64,000 nt of DNA from an uncultured Collinsella sp. (GTDB taxonomy: Bacteria > Actinomycetota > Coriobacteriia > Coriobacteriales > Coriobacteriaceae), in contig CAKUFD010000005.1 in assembly GCA_934647195.1 (NCBI GenBank), forward strand, positions 107,773-171,772. The letters are read 5' to 3'. The stretch's first letter is position 1. Each line of letters starts with the position of its first letter. A program made the translations under genes and the position numbers. This document shows positions 4,152 through 58,100 of the stretch, piece after piece. The notes below the pieces were generated by a model, which saw only the letters and a list, made by a program, of their open reading frames with translations, was not told where the DNA came from and ran no database searches.

Positions 4152-5919
4152 CTTGCGCCGTATGATTCATTACCTGGGAACATACAAGATCGATGCCGTG
4201 CTCGGCATCTTGATTGTCGCCATCGAGACCTCTATCGAGCTCTTTATCCCGGTGCTCATGGCGCGCATCATCGACGAAGGAATCGCGCAAGCCAATATTC
4301 CCCTCATCCTGCATCAGGGTGCGCTGATGCTTGCCTGTGCGCTCACATCGCTTGTCCTGGGCTTTTTCTACGCCCGTTTTGCGTCGCGTGCCTCGGTGGG
4401 TCTCGGTGCGAACCTGCGCCAGGCAGAGTACGAGAAGATTCAGCGCTACGCCTTTGGAAACCTCGACCATTACCAAACGTCCTCACTGGTCACGCGCATG
4501 ACCACCGACATCACCGTCATTCAAAACGCTATGGCGAACGGCTTTAGGCCCTGTGTGCGCGGACCGATGATGCTCATCATGTCTCTCGTCTATGCGTTTT
4601 CGCTCAACCGTGAGCTCGCCATGGTGTTCGTCTGCATCCTGCCGGTCCTCGCGGTGGCGCTCGGCATCATCACCTGGCGCGTATCGCCGCTCTACCAGCG
4701 CCTTCAGACCTCGATGGACCACGTGAACCGCGTGGTGCAGGAAAACCTGACCGCCGTCCGCGCCGTCAAGGCCTATGTGCGCGAACCGCAGCAGTGTGAC
4801 GTGTTTGACAATGTGAACAGCGAGCTTGCGCAGGGGGCTACCAAGACGTTTGGAACCGCGCAGTTCAACCTGCCGGTATTTCAAGCTGCCATCTACACGG
4901 CGGCGACGCTCGTGCTGTGGGTGGGCGGCCAGATGATTTGCGCGAACACCTTGACCGTGGGCGAGCTCACGGGCTTCATGAGCTATGTCTTGCAGGTCAT
5001 GAATTCGCTGATGATGATCTCGAACGTCTTTTTGCTGCTCACGCGTGCGCTTACGAGCGTCGAGCGCGTGGGCGAGGTTCTTGACGAGGAACCGCTGATC
5101 GCCTCGCCGGCAGCCGCGTGTGCGCTCACAATCGTGCCAGACGGCTCGGTCTCCTTCCGTAACGTCGACTTTAAATATCGCGCCGAGGCGGAGGAGAACG
5201 TGCTCGAGGGCATCTCGTTTGATATCGAGAGCGGCTCCACGGTGGGCATCCTTGGAAGCACGGGCGCGGGCAAAAGCTCGCTCGTGCAGCTCATCGCGCG
5301 TTTGTACGATGCGACGGCGGGCGAGGTGCTGGTGGGCGGCTGCGATGTGCGCGAGTACGACTTGACCGTCCTTCGCGATGCCGTGGGCGTGGTGTTGCAG
5401 AAAAACGTGCTGTTCACGGGTACCGTGCGTGACAATCTGCGCTGGGGCAATGCCGGGGCGACCGATGATGAGCTTCTCGAGGCATGCCGTCTGGCGTGCG
5501 TGGACGAATTTTTGGATCGCATCGGCGGGCTCGATGGCGACTTGGGGCAGGGCGGTGCCGGTGTATCTGGCGGCCAAAAACAACGCCTGTGCATCGCCCG
5601 CGCTCTGCTCAAGCGTCCGCGTATCTTGATTTTCGACGATTCGACAAGTGCTGTGGATATGGCCACCGAGGCCAAGATCCGTGCCAACCTGGCGAGTATC
5701 CCGGGCGTCACCTGCATCATCATCGCGCAGCGCATCACCTCGGTGATGGATGCCGACGAGATCATCGTTCTGGATGACGGTCGTCTCCATGCACAGGGCA
5801 CTCATGCGGAGTTGCTCGAGACCGATACTATTTACCGGGAAATCTATGCTTCGCAGGTGGGACATGCCGACGAGACGGCGACGGACGACGCATCGAAAGG
5901 AGGCGAGGTCGATGCCTAA
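4144..5919 (+). CDS. ABC exporter half-transporter, subunit with degenerate ATP site
   Basis: 591 residues: six-helix ABC membrane domain (about 15-320) followed by an ATPase domain with Walker A GSTGAGKSS, signature VSGGQ and Walker B ILIFDDSTS. The residue after the Walker B aspartate is Asp499 instead of the catalytic Glu, the hallmark of the degenerate-site subunit in heterodimeric exporters such as TM287/288, BmrCD and LmrCD. It should pair with the next protein to export a drug or lipid-like substrate. The ATG at 4144 overlaps the marR stop by 8 bases; an upstream-extended frame runs inside marR and is not used. Substrate unknown. Confidence 0.93.
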   Translation: MNNLRRMIHYLGTYKIDAVLGILIVAIETSIELFIPVLMARIIDEGIAQANIPLILHQGALMLACALTSLVLGFFYARFASRASVGLGANLRQAEYEKIQRYAFGNLDHYQTSSLVTRMTTDITVIQNAMANGFRPCVRGPMMLIMSLVYAFSLNRELAMVFVCILPVLAVALGIITWRVSPLYQRLQTSMDHVNRVVQENLTAVRAVKAYVREPQQCDVFDNVNSELAQGATKTFGTAQFNLPVFQAAIYTAATLVLWVGGQMICANTLTVGELTGFMSYVLQVMNSLMMISNVFLLLTRALTSVERVGEVLDEEPLIASPAAACALTIVPDGSVSFRNVDFKYRAEAEENVLEGISFDIESGSTVGILGSTGAGKSSLVQLIARLYDATAGEVLVGGCDVREYDLTVLRDAVGVVLQKNVLFTGTVRDNLRWGNAGATDDELLEACRLACVDEFLDRIGGLDGDLGQGGAGVSGGQKQRLCIARALLKRPRILIFDDSTSAVDMATEAKIRANLASIPGVTCIIIAQRITSVMDADEIIVLDDGRLHAQGTHAELLETDTIYREIYASQVGHADETATDDASKGGEVDA

Positions 5920-50616: not shown

Positions 50617-51957
50617 CTAATTCCATTCAGCGATATCGACCATTCTGCGGACGCGCCACGAGAGTGCTTCTCTTATAAAGGGTAGCCTTGATGCCAAGGC
50701 TTCGTTTCCGGATAGAATTTCGATAGCCTCATCAACAAAACCCTCGAGCTTGTCTCCGTCAAACCAGCTCATGTCCTCAACAAGCAGCATCTGTTTGGCG
50801 GGGCTTGAATGAAATTGTGTACTGGTAAAGCTATGCTCTCCGGCCTCGAGCGCTTCCAGCGATACATTGCACCACAGCGACGACCCCGAATCAAAAATCG
50901 GAGCTGGTCTGCAGGCCAGTGTGTTGACGTTGCGCACCAGCCCGAAGTTGCGCCAATGACGATCGTAATTGGCGATGATGTCGTCGCACACAATCATTCG
51001 ATCAAGGGCATCTTGGATGTTTGCGACACCGAGTTCTTCGCAGCTTGCAATGTATTTCTCATAATCGGTTAGGCGTTCGTCTGCGCTTGCCCGTTCGTTT
51101 ACATAGAACGCGGGCACGTATTCCTCTTCATCGGTCAAGAAGACATCGCATGCGCTCAGGGCAGAGGTTCCTTTGCCCTCGAGCGAATAGGGCACATAAT
51201 CTTTAGCGTCAAGAACCCTTCGATGGAGCGCGGTGGCTACTAGCTCGTTATACGGCTCCTGATTGAGATGGGCGCCAGCTTTATGGAGAACCCTGCGTGC
51301 CCCTTCGCAAGTCCAGTACTTTTGAAGATTGCCGTCGGAAGTGTTATCGGGTTTTGCTGCGGTCGCTTTTCCTTCCGGTGCGAAAGGGGCGATAGTCAGC
51401 GAGACATCCTCAAATGAGTTGTTGAAGAAGTTGATGTCCTCCCATTTAAGACCGGAACTTTGAGGCAAGATCCAATACTGATCGGATAGAGAGAGGCCGA
51501 GGTTGCGTTGAACGAGCTCTTCAGGGAGATCGACTGCAGCTTCTGCCAATAGGGCGGTTAACCCGATACGGGCGAGCGGGATGCCGCGCCCCTTCCACCA
51601 CATGCGAAATGAATCGAGCGATGCGAGGTTGTTGCGGCCGAAGACTCCGATGGGGGCATGTGACGTGTCGATGTCGGCGCCGATATGGATGAAGTCTTTT
51701 CGCGATTTGCTGTATACCAACCGGGCAACTTCGTGGGTTCGATTCATGAGCGTGAACGTGATTTCGTTTTTCCCGCTCCCTCGGCGAGGGCGTCCCCCGC
51801 TCTTGTCTGCCGAGCGGAGTCGTTCGTTGACGCTGTCTTTTTCAATAAGCCATACACCGGATGCCTTGCGGGCTGCCAATGTGCCACATTTAATGAGCTC
51901 CTGCACCCTTCGTGGGGTGATATTGAGTAGTTCGGCAGCTTCCCGGGTAGTCAACAT
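50617..51957 (-). CDS. Excisionase-type HTH fused to HipA-like kinase
   Basis: 446 residues. The first ~45 residues (LTTREAAELLNITPRRVQEL ... SGVWLIEKDSV) form a MerR/excisionase-like helix-turn-helix (HTH_17). From about residue 95 a HipA-type Ser/Thr kinase fold follows: the ATP-region lysine in DNTSDGNLQKYW, catalytic-loop residues Asp332 and Asn337 in ANYDRHWRNFGLVRN, and the metal Asp356 in APIFDSGSSLW. The D-x4-N spacing equals HipA (Asp309/Asn314). HipA phosphorylates GltX and its homologues other targets, and is usually paired with a separate HipB antitoxin; here the DNA-binding part is in the same chain and no partner ORF is adjacent. A palindromic operator overlaps its promoter. Confidence 0.78.
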   Translation of the reverse strand: MLTTREAAELLNITPRRVQELIKCGTLAARKASGVWLIEKDSVNERLRSADKSGGRPRRGSGKNEITFTLMNRTHEVARLVYSKSRKDFIHIGADIDTSHAPIGVFGRNNLASLDSFRMWWKGRGIPLARIGLTALLAEAAVDLPEELVQRNLGLSLSDQYWILPQSSGLKWEDINFFNNSFEDVSLTIAPFAPEGKATAAKPDNTSDGNLQKYWTCEGARRVLHKAGAHLNQEPYNELVATALHRRVLDAKDYVPYSLEGKGTSALSACDVFLTDEEEYVPAFYVNERASADERLTDYEKYIASCEELGVANIQDALDRMIVCDDIIANYDRHWRNFGLVRNVNTLACRPAPIFDSGSSLWCNVSLEALEAGEHSFTSTQFHSSPAKQMLLVEDMSWFDGDKLEGFVDEAIEILSGNEALASRLPFIREALSWRVRRMVDIAEWN

Positions 51958-51970
51958 AACGAAACCCTTC

Positions 51971-52038
51971 GTCAGAACGAATAGTTTTATCTATCAACGA
52001 TTATAATAAACTATTCGTTCTGACGAATAGTTTTTGAC
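51971..52038 (-). promoter_or_regulatory. Operator/promoter of the HTH-HipA gene
   Basis: GTCAGAACGAATAGTTT (51971-51987) and AAACTATTCGTTCTGAC (52008-52024) are a perfect 17-bp inverted repeat; a third related half, GACGAATAGTTTTTGAC, overlaps at 52022-52038. A minus-strand TATAAT (52005-52000) lies between the arms. The fused HTH likely represses its own promoter here (inference). Confidence 0.7.
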
Positions 52039-52180
52039 AGTTAAAAGGTTTTCTCTTGATGTTTGCACTAGAGAGTGCCGTCTTGAGCTTGGCGTTTATG
52101 TCGTGTCCTTGCGACCACATGTTGCGTCCAGCTCTCAATTCCTTTATCCTAAACAAGCTTCGCGCGATAGCGCCAAGCGT

Positions 52181-52255
52181 GCCAGTGTGGCGCAACGGTA
52201 GCGCAACTGATTTGTAATCAGTGGGTTGCGGGTTCGATTCCTGTCACTGGCTCCA
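52181..52255 (+). tRNA. tRNA-Thr (anticodon UGU)
   Basis: 75 bases including encoded CCA. The acceptor stem GCCAGTG / CACTGGC is fully paired; the anticodon arm is ACTGA-TTTGTAA-TCAGT with anticodon TGT; the T-arm contains GGTTCGATTCC. Discriminator base T precedes CCA. A terminator follows at 52264-52307. Confidence 0.97.
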
Positions 52256-53234: not shown

Positions 53235-54860
53235 TTAGAACTGGCCGGAAGTGATGCGGAGGATTTTTTCTGCAAAGGCGATTTGCAGATAATCGTCGGG
53301 ATTCTTGATGTCGATTCCGACGGTTTCTTTGATTCGATCGACGCGGTAGCGAACGGTTTTAGGGTGGATGAAGAGCTCATTGGCTGTCTTGTTGTAGTCG
53401 ATTCCGTTGGAGCACAGTTTGGTCAAGGTTTCAAAAAGGTCGGGATGGTCTTCTGACAATTGCTTGAGCCGGGGGTCGATAAACGAGCTGAGCTCCGAGG
53501 TGTCGTCTACGGTGAGCATGAGTTTGTAAATGCCAAGGTCGTCGTAGCGATAGCAAGCGTTTTTATGCGTGGTCCCTTCAAAGAGACGGTGCGTATCGAG
53601 CGCTTCCTGGTTTGCGATATCGATGGAATAGCGATCGTGAATGCCGCTCAGCGAAGCGAGATGCGTGAAGGGCGGCAAGGTCGAGCGGGCATGAAGATCT
53701 GCAAAGGCGGTCTCGATCGAATCGATATCCATCGAGGACATTTGACTGCGAACATTTCGAAGGTATACAGCGCGGTTTCCGTTCATAAAAAAGACCATGC
53801 CGGGATAGACCGTGCGCAGCTTTCTCCTGATGGCCTGGTGAATCTCGTCTTGACGGTCGATGTCGGCTGGATCATCAAGATCAAAGAAAACCAGGAGCAC
53901 CTCATAGAACGGGTACTGGTCTATTCCCAGTCCGTTGAGAGCGGCGTCGATTTTCTCTTTGTCCTGATAGCGCCCAAGCAAAAGATCGTGGACGGTGTTG
54001 TTGTTTTGGAAGAAGACTTTCTGCTTAATCGCGTTTTGCTTGAGGATTTCCATTTGCAGCAAGCTGACGATATTCTCGACCGTCATGGTGTCGAAAGGCG
54101 TCAGGTCTTTGCCGTCGTTGTGGATGATGAGGTAGTAGTCGATTGCATCTGAGCTTGGTATCCGTACTGCTAGGGCATGCTCGGCTACGGGGTTTTCGCT
54201 TTGTGCGGTGGGCTGATCTGCAAAGTAAAGCTGCGCGGAGAAATATGCGTGCGTCTGATATTGACTGGGATCGCGCCTGCGAAGGGAAAACGCTGTAAAC
54301 GAGTCGCAACTCTTGCCGGTTGAGAGGCGGCGGTCACGCTCGGTGTCGTAATAAGTCACGTCGACATGAAGGGCGTTTTTGAGCGTGCTGAGAATATAGG
54401 GGATAGACGGCTGCTTGAGGGCAAGCGCCATAAGGTGTCGATGGACTTCGTAGAAGCGATTGAGAAGCGTTAGGTTCGAGTCCAGGATGTGCCCCATGAC
54501 ACCGAGGAGAATCGCCTCGTATTTTACGCTTGGTCGCAGCTCAATAAGGGGGATATCAAAATCGTTGCAGAGGTCAATGATCTGCTGCGGCGCCTCGGCA
54601 ACCAACCGTTCGGGCTTAAATGCAATGGCAGCAATGCCAATGAGGCCCATCTTGGTAAAGAACCGTGCGATTTCACGTTCGGAAAGATGCTCAAGGGCGT
54701 AAAAGCTCGAGATGATGAGCTGCCCACGCTTGCCCCAGTTTTCGATATCGGTAGCTTCGAGGACCATGGCGCTCGTGACGTCGTTTTCAAGGCCGTTTTT
54801 ACCTGCGATGACGTGTGAGGAATCGAAGGCGGGAAGAATCAGCATATCCTGAACGATCAT
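53235..54860 (-). CDS. pucR: PucR-family transcriptional regulator
   Basis: 541 residues. The N-terminal ~125 (VQDMLILPAFDSSHVIAGKN ... AIAFKPERLV) is the purine-catabolism regulator-like domain (PF07905). A central CdaR/GGDEF-like region (about 290-430) precedes the C-terminal HTH_30 domain (NGIDYNKTANELFIHPKTVR, YRVDRIKETVGIDIKNPDDY). PucR activates purine breakdown genes in B. subtilis. It is transcribed divergently from the FdrA operon, so it is the likely local activator, sensing a purine-derived metabolite (inference). ATG at 54860 has AAGGAG upstream. Confidence 0.9.
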   Translation of the reverse strand: MIVQDMLILPAFDSSHVIAGKNGLENDVTSAMVLEATDIENWGKRGQLIISSFYALEHLSEREIARFFTKMGLIGIAAIAFKPERLVAEAPQQIIDLCNDFDIPLIELRPSVKYEAILLGVMGHILDSNLTLLNRFYEVHRHLMALALKQPSIPYILSTLKNALHVDVTYYDTERDRRLSTGKSCDSFTAFSLRRRDPSQYQTHAYFSAQLYFADQPTAQSENPVAEHALAVRIPSSDAIDYYLIIHNDGKDLTPFDTMTVENIVSLLQMEILKQNAIKQKVFFQNNNTVHDLLLGRYQDKEKIDAALNGLGIDQYPFYEVLLVFFDLDDPADIDRQDEIHQAIRRKLRTVYPGMVFFMNGNRAVYLRNVRSQMSSMDIDSIETAFADLHARSTLPPFTHLASLSGIHDRYSIDIANQEALDTHRLFEGTTHKNACYRYDDLGIYKLMLTVDDTSELSSFIDPRLKQLSEDHPDLFETLTKLCSNGIDYNKTANELFIHPKTVRYRVDRIKETVGIDIKNPDDYLQIAFAEKILRITSGQF

Positions 54861-55094: not shown

Positions 55095-58000
55095 ATGCTG
55101 AAAACCGTAATCAAGCAGAATGCATATCAGGATTCAATCAACCTGATGCTGTTGACCAACAAGATCAACACGCTTGATGGTGTCATCCAGAGCCAGATCA
55201 TGATGGGAACGGATGCCAACAAGGATATCTATAAGGCCGCGGGCCTTTTGACCGATGAAGCTGCTGCTGCAAGCCCGAGCGATATGGTTATCGTTGTCGA
55301 GACCGAAGACGAAGCCGTTATCGATACGGTGCTCGCCGAGGCCGAGACGTTCTTGAACGACCTTTCGGTAAAGAAGGAGGCTGCAGGCGCCCCCGCCGAG
55401 GCGACGAGTTGGGAAGAGGCAGTGGCGATGCTTCCCGATGCCAACATGGCGCTCTTCTCCATCCCTGGCGAGTACGCCGCTCCCGAGCTCGAGCGCGCGC
55501 TCGACCTGGGACTCAACGTCTTTTCCTTCACGGATAACGTTCCCCTGGAGGATGAGGTTCGTCTGAAGCAGAAGGCTCACGAGAAGGGCCTGCTCTTCAT
55601 GGGTCCCGACTGCGGTACCGGCGTCGTTTCGAGCGTTCCCGTGGCATTCACCAATGTCATCAATCCTGGCAACATCGGCATCGTCGGTGCTTCTGGAACC
55701 GGTATCCAGGAGGTCACATGCGTGATTGACCGTCTGGGTGAGGGCTGCGTGCACGCAATCGGCACCGGCGGCCGCGATCTTAACGAGAAGGTTGGCGCCG
55801 TCACCGTCAAGGACGCCATCGTCGCACTCGAGCATCATGATCCGACCGACGTCATCTGCGTTATTTCCAAGCCGCCCGCGCCCGAGGTTCGCGATGAGGT
55901 TGTCGATCTTCTGGAGAAGTGCACCAAGCCCGTTGTCGCCATCTTCATTGGCGAGAAGCCCGAGGCACATCAGGGTAAGGTCTACCTTGCGCACACTCTC
56001 GAGGAGACCGCTCGTATCGCCGTCGATCTTGCTCGCGGCGAGGCCGTCAAGAAGAACTACACCGAGCCGCTCGATATTACCGTCGACGCTCCGCTCGGCG
56101 AGGACAAGACCGTTATCGGCCTGTACTCCGGCGGCACCCTCGCTGGCGAAGCTGCCATGATGATCACCGAGGCGCTGAATCTCGGCCACATCATCAAAGA
56201 AGATGGCTACATGCTGCGCCACGGCGGCTACGACGTTATCGACCTTGGCGACGACGTGTATACCCAGGGCCGTCCGCACCCCATGATCGACCCCGAGGTC
56301 CGCATCAAGATGATGCGCGATTATGCCTCCAAGGAGACCACGGGCGTTATCGTGTTCGACTGCGTGCTCGGTTATGGATGCCATCCCGATATGGCCTCCG
56401 AGCTCGCTCCGGTCATCTCTGAGTGCATTGCTGCCGCCAAGGCAGAGGGCCGTGACGTCAAGTTCGTCGGCACCGTTGTGGGCACCAAGCACGATCCCCA
56501 GGATTACGACCGCTCCGTCGAGATTCTTCGCGAGGCCGGCGCCATCGTCGAGTCCAGCAACGCTCGTGCCGTCCGTGCAGCGCTTGCTTTCAAGGGTATC
56601 GATTATGCCGAGGAAGATCGCGAAGTCGTTCCTTACGAGATTAAGGACAACAGCCCGCTGCCCGAGCCCTCCGAGGCCGTCATGGAGCTTTTGACCACCA
56701 AGCCGCGCGTTATCAATGTTGGTGTGGAGAGCTTCAACGAGCCGCTGCGCAAGTACGGTGCCCAGAGCGTCCAGTACACCTGGAAGCCCAAGGCGGGTGG
56801 CAACAAGCGCATGATCCATCTGCTCAACGAGCTCGATAAGATCGACGGCATCGATGAGGCAAATGAGCGTATCTGCCAGCGCTTCAAGGAGTCCCAGCCG
56901 CAGCTTGTGGACGTGAAGGTCGCCAAGGACGTTATCCCCGAGCTCAATCGCGCCAAAAAGACGCTGCTCCACGCTGGTCCTCCCATCACCTGGGAGAACA
57001 TGCAGGGCCCGATGAGGGGTTCGTGCATCGGCGCCGCGCTCTTCGAGGGCTGGGCTGAGACCGAGGAAGAGGCTCTTGCCCTGCTCGAGTCCGGTGAGGT
57101 CGAGTTCATCCCGTGCCACCACTGCCATGCGGTGGGCCCCATGGGTGGCATCACCTCTGCCAACATGGCTGTCCTCGAGGTTGTGAACACCGTCGACAAC
57201 ACGGTTGCCTACTGCACCATGAACGAGGGCATCGGCAAGGTTCTGCGCTTTGGTGCCTATAGCCAGGAGGTCGTCGATCGCCTGCACTGGATGGCCGACG
57301 AGCTCGGTCCCGTTCTTGCAAAGGCTCTCAAGCTTTCCGACGGCGGCATCAACCTCAACGTCCTTATGGCTCGCGCCATCACCCAGGGCGACGAGTTCCA
57401 CCAGCGCAACATGGCTGCTACGCTCAACTTCGTAAAGGAGATGGCTCCGCTCATCGTCCAGACCGATGTGCCTGAGGATGCCAAGCAGCGTGTCATCCAG
57501 TTCCTGTGCGATACCGACCAGTTCTTCCTCAACGTGATGATGGCCACGGGCAAGTCGATTGTCGACTATGTCCGCAAGGATCAGGAGGGCTGCGTTGTCT
57601 CCACGATGACCCGTAACGGTTACGAGTTTGGCGTGCGCGTCTCCGGCCTGGGCGATCAGTGGTTCACCGCTCCGGTCAACACCCCGATCGGCCTTTACTT
57701 CACGGGCTTCACGGCAGAGGACGGCTGCCCGGATAACGGCGACTCCGCAATCTGCGAGACGGTCGGCGTTGGCGGTATGGCCATGGTCGCAGCACCCGGC
57801 GTTACCCGCTTTGTCGGCGCCGGCGGGTTCGAGGACGCCCTCAACATCTCCAACGAGATGGAGAAGATCTGCGTGACCCATAACTCCAACTGGGCTATTC
57901 CTACGTGGGACTTCAAGGGTACCTGCCTGGGTATCGATATCCGCAAGGTCGTCGCCACCGGCATCACCCCGATCATCAACACCGGTATCGCCCACAAGAA

Positions 58001-58100
58001 GGCGGGTATCGGCCAGGTTGGCGCCGGTACGGTTCGCGCTCCGCTTGCGTGCTTCGAGCAGGCGCTTGAGGCCTATTGCGCCAAGCTCGGTATCGAGTAG
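55095..58100 (+). CDS. fdrA: Fused FdrA-DUF1116 protein (candidate oxamate carbamoyltransferase subunits)
   Basis: 1001 residues. Residues 1 to about 520 are FdrA, which has a succinyl-CoA-synthetase-like fold (GIVGASGTGIQEVTCVIDRL, GTGGRDLNEKVG). After a short hinge (about 515-535) comes a complete DUF1116 (YlbE) domain with FIPCHHCHAVGPMGGITSAN and APGVTRFVGAGGFEDALNIS. In E. coli FdrA (~555 residues) and YlbE (~419) are separate and, with YlbF, were recently linked to oxamate carbamoyltransferase (AllFGH), which cleaves oxalurate to oxamate plus carbamoyl phosphate. The sum of sizes and intact frame show a real fusion. GAGGAGGG supports the ATG at 55095. First gene of the operon. Confidence 0.88.
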   Translation: MLKTVIKQNAYQDSINLMLLTNKINTLDGVIQSQIMMGTDANKDIYKAAGLLTDEAAAASPSDMVIVVETEDEAVIDTVLAEAETFLNDLSVKKEAAGAPAEATSWEEAVAMLPDANMALFSIPGEYAAPELERALDLGLNVFSFTDNVPLEDEVRLKQKAHEKGLLFMGPDCGTGVVSSVPVAFTNVINPGNIGIVGASGTGIQEVTCVIDRLGEGCVHAIGTGGRDLNEKVGAVTVKDAIVALEHHDPTDVICVISKPPAPEVRDEVVDLLEKCTKPVVAIFIGEKPEAHQGKVYLAHTLEETARIAVDLARGEAVKKNYTEPLDITVDAPLGEDKTVIGLYSGGTLAGEAAMMITEALNLGHIIKEDGYMLRHGGYDVIDLGDDVYTQGRPHPMIDPEVRIKMMRDYASKETTGVIVFDCVLGYGCHPDMASELAPVISECIAAAKAEGRDVKFVGTVVGTKHDPQDYDRSVEILREAGAIVESSNARAVRAALAFKGIDYAEEDREVVPYEIKDNSPLPEPSEAVMELLTTKPRVINVGVESFNEPLRKYGAQSVQYTWKPKAGGNKRMIHLLNELDKIDGIDEANERICQRFKESQPQLVDVKVAKDVIPELNRAKKTLLHAGPPITWENMQGPMRGSCIGAALFEGWAETEEEALALLESGEVEFIPCHHCHAVGPMGGITSANMAVLEVVNTVDNTVAYCTMNEGIGKVLRFGAYSQEVVDRLHWMADELGPVLAKALKLSDGGINLNVLMARAITQGDEFHQRNMAATLNFVKEMAPLIVQTDVPEDAKQRVIQFLCDTDQFFLNVMMATGKSIVDYVRKDQEGCVVSTMTRNGYEFGVRVSGLGDQWFTAPVNTPIGLYFTGFTAEDGCPDNGDSAICETVGVGGMAMVAAPGVTRFVGAGGFEDALNISNEMEKICVTHNSNWAIPTWDFKGTCLGIDIRKVVATGITPIINTGIAHKKAGIGQVGAGTVRAPLACFEQALEAYCAKLGIE

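Follow-up and report, generated by a model that had tools for sequence, protein, structure and literature searches.

An HTH_17-fused kinase of the HipA superfamily in Collinsella that most likely regulates its own gene

In classical toxin-antitoxin logic the antitoxin is less stable than the toxin, and unequal stability is no option once a covalent bond holds the two halves together in a single chain. How a HipA-type kinase could be restrained in such a chain is the question raised by a gene at positions 50617–51957 of a 64,000-nucleotide stretch of DNA from an uncultured Collinsella sp., a gut bacterium (contig CAKUFD010000005.1, positions 107,773–171,772; hereafter the window). An earlier note on this DNA had described the gene as an excisionase-like helix-turn-helix (HTH) domain fused to a HipA-like kinase with no partner open reading frame (ORF) next to it, coupling DNA binding and kinase activity in one molecule. 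The single chain and the missing partner stood, but the two-part description was incomplete, as a HipS/HipA-N1-like lid is probably present too. We put the probability at about 0.5 that the product is a single-chain, self-regulated HipA-superfamily Ser/Thr kinase with hipB-, hipS- and hipT-like functions in cis. Binding to its own promoter and an intact kinase are supported by sequence comparison; repression, a closed lid, control by autophosphorylation and a growth-related target we infer. The gene and the parts of its product are as follows.

50617–51957, minus strand: fused kinase gene, ATG start, TAG stop, 446 aa
51808–51957, minus strand: HTH_17 (excisionase-family) DNA-binding domain, residues 1–50 (PF12728, E 1.9e-9; TIGR01764, 29.5 bits against a cut-off of 28.8)
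51460–51765, minus strand: probable HipA N-subdomain-1/HipS-like lid, residues 65–166, with W120 in 59/59 aligned rows
50620–51459, minus strand: HipA/CtkA-fold kinase core, residues 167–446

The fusion was borne out at both ends of the chain. A Pfam scan placed HTH_17 at residues 1–49 (E 1.9e-9), and the AlphaFold2 model, built on a 59-row alignment (A1: the window protein, 37 of 120 listed relatives and 21 of 42 loci from a genome scan), showed a HipA/CtkA fold with high confidence (mean predicted local distance difference test score 89.9, predicted template-modelling score 0.83). The HipA_C match at residues 298–363 fell below the Pfam gathering score (20.7 versus 30.5 bits), and precomputed Pfam annotation assigns HipA_C to some fused relatives. 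The closest solved sequence was the kinase CtkA, with E 3.8e-4 from the single sequence and E 2.5e-15 from the family profile. Structural matches of residues 65–166 were weak but specific, falling almost exclusively on the HipA N-subdomain-1/HipS lid, and in the model this region probably forms a lid of that type, although the Pfam model of the HipA N-terminus (Couple_hipA) matched neither the window protein nor HipH. All three parts are under purifying selection relative to other Collinsella loci, with ratios of nonsynonymous to synonymous divergence (dN/dS) of 0.134 for the HTH, 0.085 for the lid and 0.054 for the kinase.

The active site contains the following elements.

51319–51342, minus strand: TSDGNLQK, putative Gly-rich loop, residues 206–213, with T or S at 206 in 59/59 rows and G209 and K213 invariant
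51280–51282, minus strand: K226, putative ATP lysine, in 59/59 rows
50947–50964, minus strand: D332–N337 catalytic loop (DRHWRN), from alignment to HipA and conservation
50890–50892, minus strand: D356, Mg-binding Asp, from alignment to HipA and conservation

Asp332, Asn337 and Asp356, which had been singled out as conserved from the window sequence, were invariant in 59/59 rows together with K226 and E238, and align with HipA D309, N314 and D332. K226 and N237-E238 were aligned with canonical Collinsella HipA in a low-scoring alignment (8.9 bits). Mapping by eye places T206 at the HipA autophosphorylation site Ser150, and D208 is kept in 56/59 rows. The window protein shows the marks of the HipA-homologous kinase superfamily: a putative Gly-rich loop, the catalytic loop and an Asp for Mg binding. 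Work on HipBST describes HipS as blocking HipT at the active site, with a tryptophan (Trp65) wedged at the Gly-rich loop (PMC10627512); by analogy, W120 of the lid may play the role of that tryptophan.

The strongest evidence for self-regulation lies directly upstream of the gene, where the earlier note had proposed a binding test on 51971–52038.

51962–51987, no strand assigned: predicted proximal operator site B, an inverted copy covering the ribosome-binding site
52008–52033, no strand assigned: predicted distal operator site A, an 11-bp palindrome in itself with a 4-nt centre
51965–51970, minus strand: Shine-Dalgarno-like GAAGGG, 7 nt ahead of the ATG
52000–52005, minus strand: -10-like TATAAT between sites A and B (TACAAT in other Collinsella)

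Sites A and B are two inverted copies of one ~20-bp sequence; a promoter scan found no consensus promoter upstream of the gene. When the window was compared with 14 other Collinsella loci, identity was 93% in site A and 94% in site B, as against 75% in the 8-nt leader, 55% in the spacer, 24% just upstream of the sites and 39% further upstream, and the sites were kept although synonymous positions of the gene are near saturation (dS 1.4). Relatives in the Olsenella group have a different HTH sequence and a different palindrome at the equivalent position, and a Collinsella paralogue (40% identical) has yet another palindrome. Across the wider family, we looked within 100 bp of the start for inverted repeats beating dinucleotide shuffles (p 0.05) and found one at 19/28 HTH-fused loci (median p 0.02) and at 1/24 HTH-less loci (median p 0.69; Fisher p 1.8e-6); within 60 nt the counts were 16/28 and 0/24 (p 3.0e-6), these p-values being optimistic because the loci are related. 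The fused set leaves out near-identical Collinsella and paralogue copies, L014, L015 and L036. The HTH-less set leaves out L024, L042, L108 and L117 as near copies, and L033, L035 and L038–L041 because they are copies, fragmentary or have broken ORFs. A fixed rule chose the starts and probably placed those of L074, L142 and L144 at an internal ATG; L110, L113 and L116 were trimmed at a downstream in-frame position, which in L110 is no start codon. The association of repeats with the fused HTH and the conservation of the sites suggest that the HTH most likely regulates its own gene. Across 43 Collinsella genomes the operator pattern formed a pair nowhere but at its own site, whether or not the gene was there; the 17 further hits all had two mismatches and equalled the 17 hits of a control pattern, so no regulon was seen in these genomes.

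No HipB-like gene was found among the adjacent ORFs of the window. As a separate upstream antitoxin, the only candidate ORF (52001–52195, minus strand) was rejected, since it starts antisense to tRNA-Thr, within that gene, and shows poor conservation in its middle part. Likewise, no HipB-like HTH_3 gene was seen next to the HTH-less relatives, whose ORF lists were inspected by eye and from which 20 neighbours at 19 loci were scanned with Pfam. Other DNA-binding neighbours of the HTH-less relatives do exist, none common to any two loci: a GntR ORF lies 0.5 kb downstream at L031, a MazE-type antitoxin ORF directly downstream at L020, and at L019 a sub-threshold match to sigma-70 lies upstream. 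At L041, a free HTH_17 ORF (4967–5203, minus strand; E 1.2e-14) sits 0.8 kb upstream of the HTH-less relative on the opposite strand, possibly as an unfused counterpart and possibly by chance.

Further HTH_17–HipA fusions, which the earlier note had thought worth seeking, were recovered: a protein search returned 734 relatives, and the 120 listed mostly carry HTH_17. Where close relatives are named, they bear only the label ‘DNA-binding protein’. In the scan that gave 42 loci, the HTH was present in Coriobacteriia, and the HTH-less loci came from Bacillota, one Treponema and two Coriobacteriales or Coriobacteriaceae bins; the catalytic residues were retained in 19/19 HTH-less rows. A 60-row tree recovered the main fused clade (28 rows) with good support (100/97); on the best tree the fused state takes two changes, and the well-supported branches demand one or more. 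Within the class Coriobacteriia, matches at E 1e-10, counting distant subfamilies, occurred in 65/246 genomes. A distant group shows what by sequence is a separate one-chain fusion, in Vescimonas fastidiosa (L180, 2102–3514), where a Cro-type HTH_3 (E 3.5e-13) stands ahead of the kinase.

In all 14 scanned Collinsella loci, as in the window, the fused gene lies between a YacP-NYN gene and tRNA-Thr(TGT), the distance to the tRNA being 1.7 kb in L002 and ~0.2 kb in the others. Identity across Collinsella is 83–84% for the gene and 73–88% for its neighbours, an equal divergence that fits vertical descent. The orthologue is patchy (14/43 Collinsella genomes, genome completeness not given). Of the relatives fetched, the one nearest to the window, G016 (cysS 98%, YacP 97.5%), has ~670 nt of unrelated sequence at the site (L103, 2781–3660), with no similar gene and one degenerate operator copy. 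Seven gene-less genomes (G005, G006, G007, G011, G015, G022 and G034; L096–L102) still have both sites in the same place between tRNA-Thr and YacP, without the -10-like element. In six of the seven, the leftover operator is succeeded by the decayed remnant of a tRNA-Thr anticodon arm; five of these remnants scored clearly above shuffles, and the sixth, at 29, just exceeded the best shuffle (28).

Taken as a self-regulated kinase, the chain would work as follows. The HTH_17 head would bind the pair of inverted sites that frames its promoter, repressing transcription, and the predicted HipS-like lid would stand beside the kinase, giving DNA binding, lid and kinase in cis in the same order as the hipBST genes. 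With the lid closed and the chain on DNA, the kinase would be idle. A signal that frees the lid, together with autophosphorylation at T206, would let the kinase phosphorylate a cell target and slow growth; loss of operator binding would raise kinase synthesis. The existence of HTH-less relatives suggests that the kinase can be kept in check without the HTH; the likelier inhibitor would then be the lid, with the HTH mainly a dose controller. Because the inhibitor is inseparable from the kinase, the gene is not expected to be addictive, which fits its frequent absence. More tentatively, the Coriobacteriia proteins may represent a one-gene toxin-antitoxin family with HipB, HipS and HipT in one polypeptide, in which the HTH would tether the chain to its own promoter while the lid blocks the kinase, and release would consist of de-repression and kinase activation together. 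As toxin and antitoxin are inseparable in such a chain, activation would be conformational and would not proceed via antitoxin decay. Such a chain would be a test of how Hip kinases are switched, be it by conformation, by operator occupancy or through autophosphorylation, and the family offers natural contrasts in HTH-fused and HTH-less members, in HTH types with differing operators and in a clear set of catalytic residues.

Other readings of the locus have to be weighed against this one. The gene might encode a kinase-controlled transcription regulator and no toxin, sensing a signal and tuning its DNA binding by autophosphorylation, with slowed growth not its purpose. The strong operator–HTH link, the position as a lone gene at ordinary chromosomal places and the purifying selection agree with such a regulator; however, retention of the catalytic residues in the HTH-less relatives means that the kinase must act on something other than DNA binding, and the lack of a visible regulon also tells against it, leaving it rather unlikely. 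We regard as unlikely a single-gene anti-phage (abortive infection) kinase, in which infection would lift the lid or strip the protein from its operator. PDC-M03A was the sole PADLOC family matched and the only one of PDC-M03 to match, over the kinase (best E 3.8e-14) and in HTH-less relatives too. The patchy presence also fits, as do relatives encoded at 21 loci on viral contigs (L159–L179), whose listed matches start at query residue 52 or later and so leave out the HTH. Two HTH-less kinase genes moreover overlap or abut a Fic-family gene (L029, 6001–7943, Anaerococcus; L187, 1839–3829, Helicobacter cinaedi plasmid), and these Fic genes match PADLOC candidate families. Against a defence role, no PADLOC hit was obtained among six neighbouring proteins, in Collinsella the gene has a single chromosomal location, with housekeeping genes around it and not a defence island, and the name PDC-M03A presumably implies a multi-gene candidate, for which no partner gene was identified here.

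An ordinary two-gene toxin-antitoxin system with its antitoxin encoded elsewhere, for example as the canonical HipB of the genome, is improbable. Several Collinsella do have a canonical hipA ~8 kb from the fused gene with, by eye, a HipB-like ORF upstream (L151, 1231–2967, and the equivalent place in other Collinsella), and both designs therefore coexist in the genus; nevertheless, these HipA proteins gave no tblastn hit in the window, an HTH and a predicted operator already belong to the fused system itself, and in the ORF lists HTH-less relatives across Bacillota do without a HipB-like neighbour. It is very improbable that the gene is part of a mobile element at tRNA-Thr with the HTH as its excisionase. 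The adjoining tRNA and the decayed tRNA fragments would suit such an element, whereas a Pfam scan of four flanking proteins, one of them a 64-aa ORF, detected no integrase, divergence is similar in the gene and its neighbours, and relatives keep the gene at five tRNA-less loci, two of which (L016 and L018) also keep a repeat.

Among known Hip systems, the closest parallel qualifies the novelty first claimed for the fusion. HipH (YjjJ) of E. coli K-12, a member of clade X of the Hip tree, is presented in PMC8262856 as a single-chain HTH–HipA kinase whose HTH was proposed to be a cis-acting antitoxin, with a kinase core that, going by the alignment with HipT, would lack the HipA N-subdomain-1. 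Like the window gene, HipH is one monocistronic gene with an N-terminal HTH and a HipA-type kinase, but its HTH is weakly MarR-like (E 0.044) in contrast to HTH_17, and the A1 profile scores it at only 0.3 bits, over the catalytic loop (E. coli HipA likewise ~0 bits). The HTH type and the kinase branch differ by sequence. HipA_C begins at residue 200 of 443 in HipH, leaving room for a lid-like stretch, so HipH may share the one-chain layout, which may not be new. Two profile comparisons, one against 11 aligned rows resembling E. coli HipA and one of the lid against HipH, were uninformative. The same source gathered its sequences by similarity to HipA, HipH and HipT, and the present family may therefore have been missed. 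It also describes HipL, a single chain in the order kinase–HipS–HIRAN (PMC8262856); the window protein has a different order and no HIRAN match (Pfam, E ≤ 1). HipBST shares the functional order of DNA binding, HipS-like domain and kinase, but distributes it over three genes and uses an HTH from another family. In HipBA, N-subdomain-1 and kinase are co-linear with window residues 66–446 and the promoter operators are palindromic, but HipB is separate and adjacent, and identity in structural alignments is 9–13%. CtkA of Helicobacter pylori matches residues 201–446 only, with no HTH or lid in the alignment. Among open PMC papers, none was found on PDC-M03, on CtkA with HipA kinase or on HTH_17 with HipA_C. 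The window gene is a real, widespread and little-described variant of the Hip theme and no new category.

Some further observations concern relatives and surroundings. At L014, a Fic gene lies ~1 kb upstream of the fused gene. Tandem double copies of the family occur at G179:C32 94157–96557 and G114:C1 2838964–2841337. In the window, a PucR-family regulator (53235–54860, minus strand) stands beside a 1001-aa ORF (55095–58100, plus strand), which by eye looks like an FdrA/YlbE-type protein.
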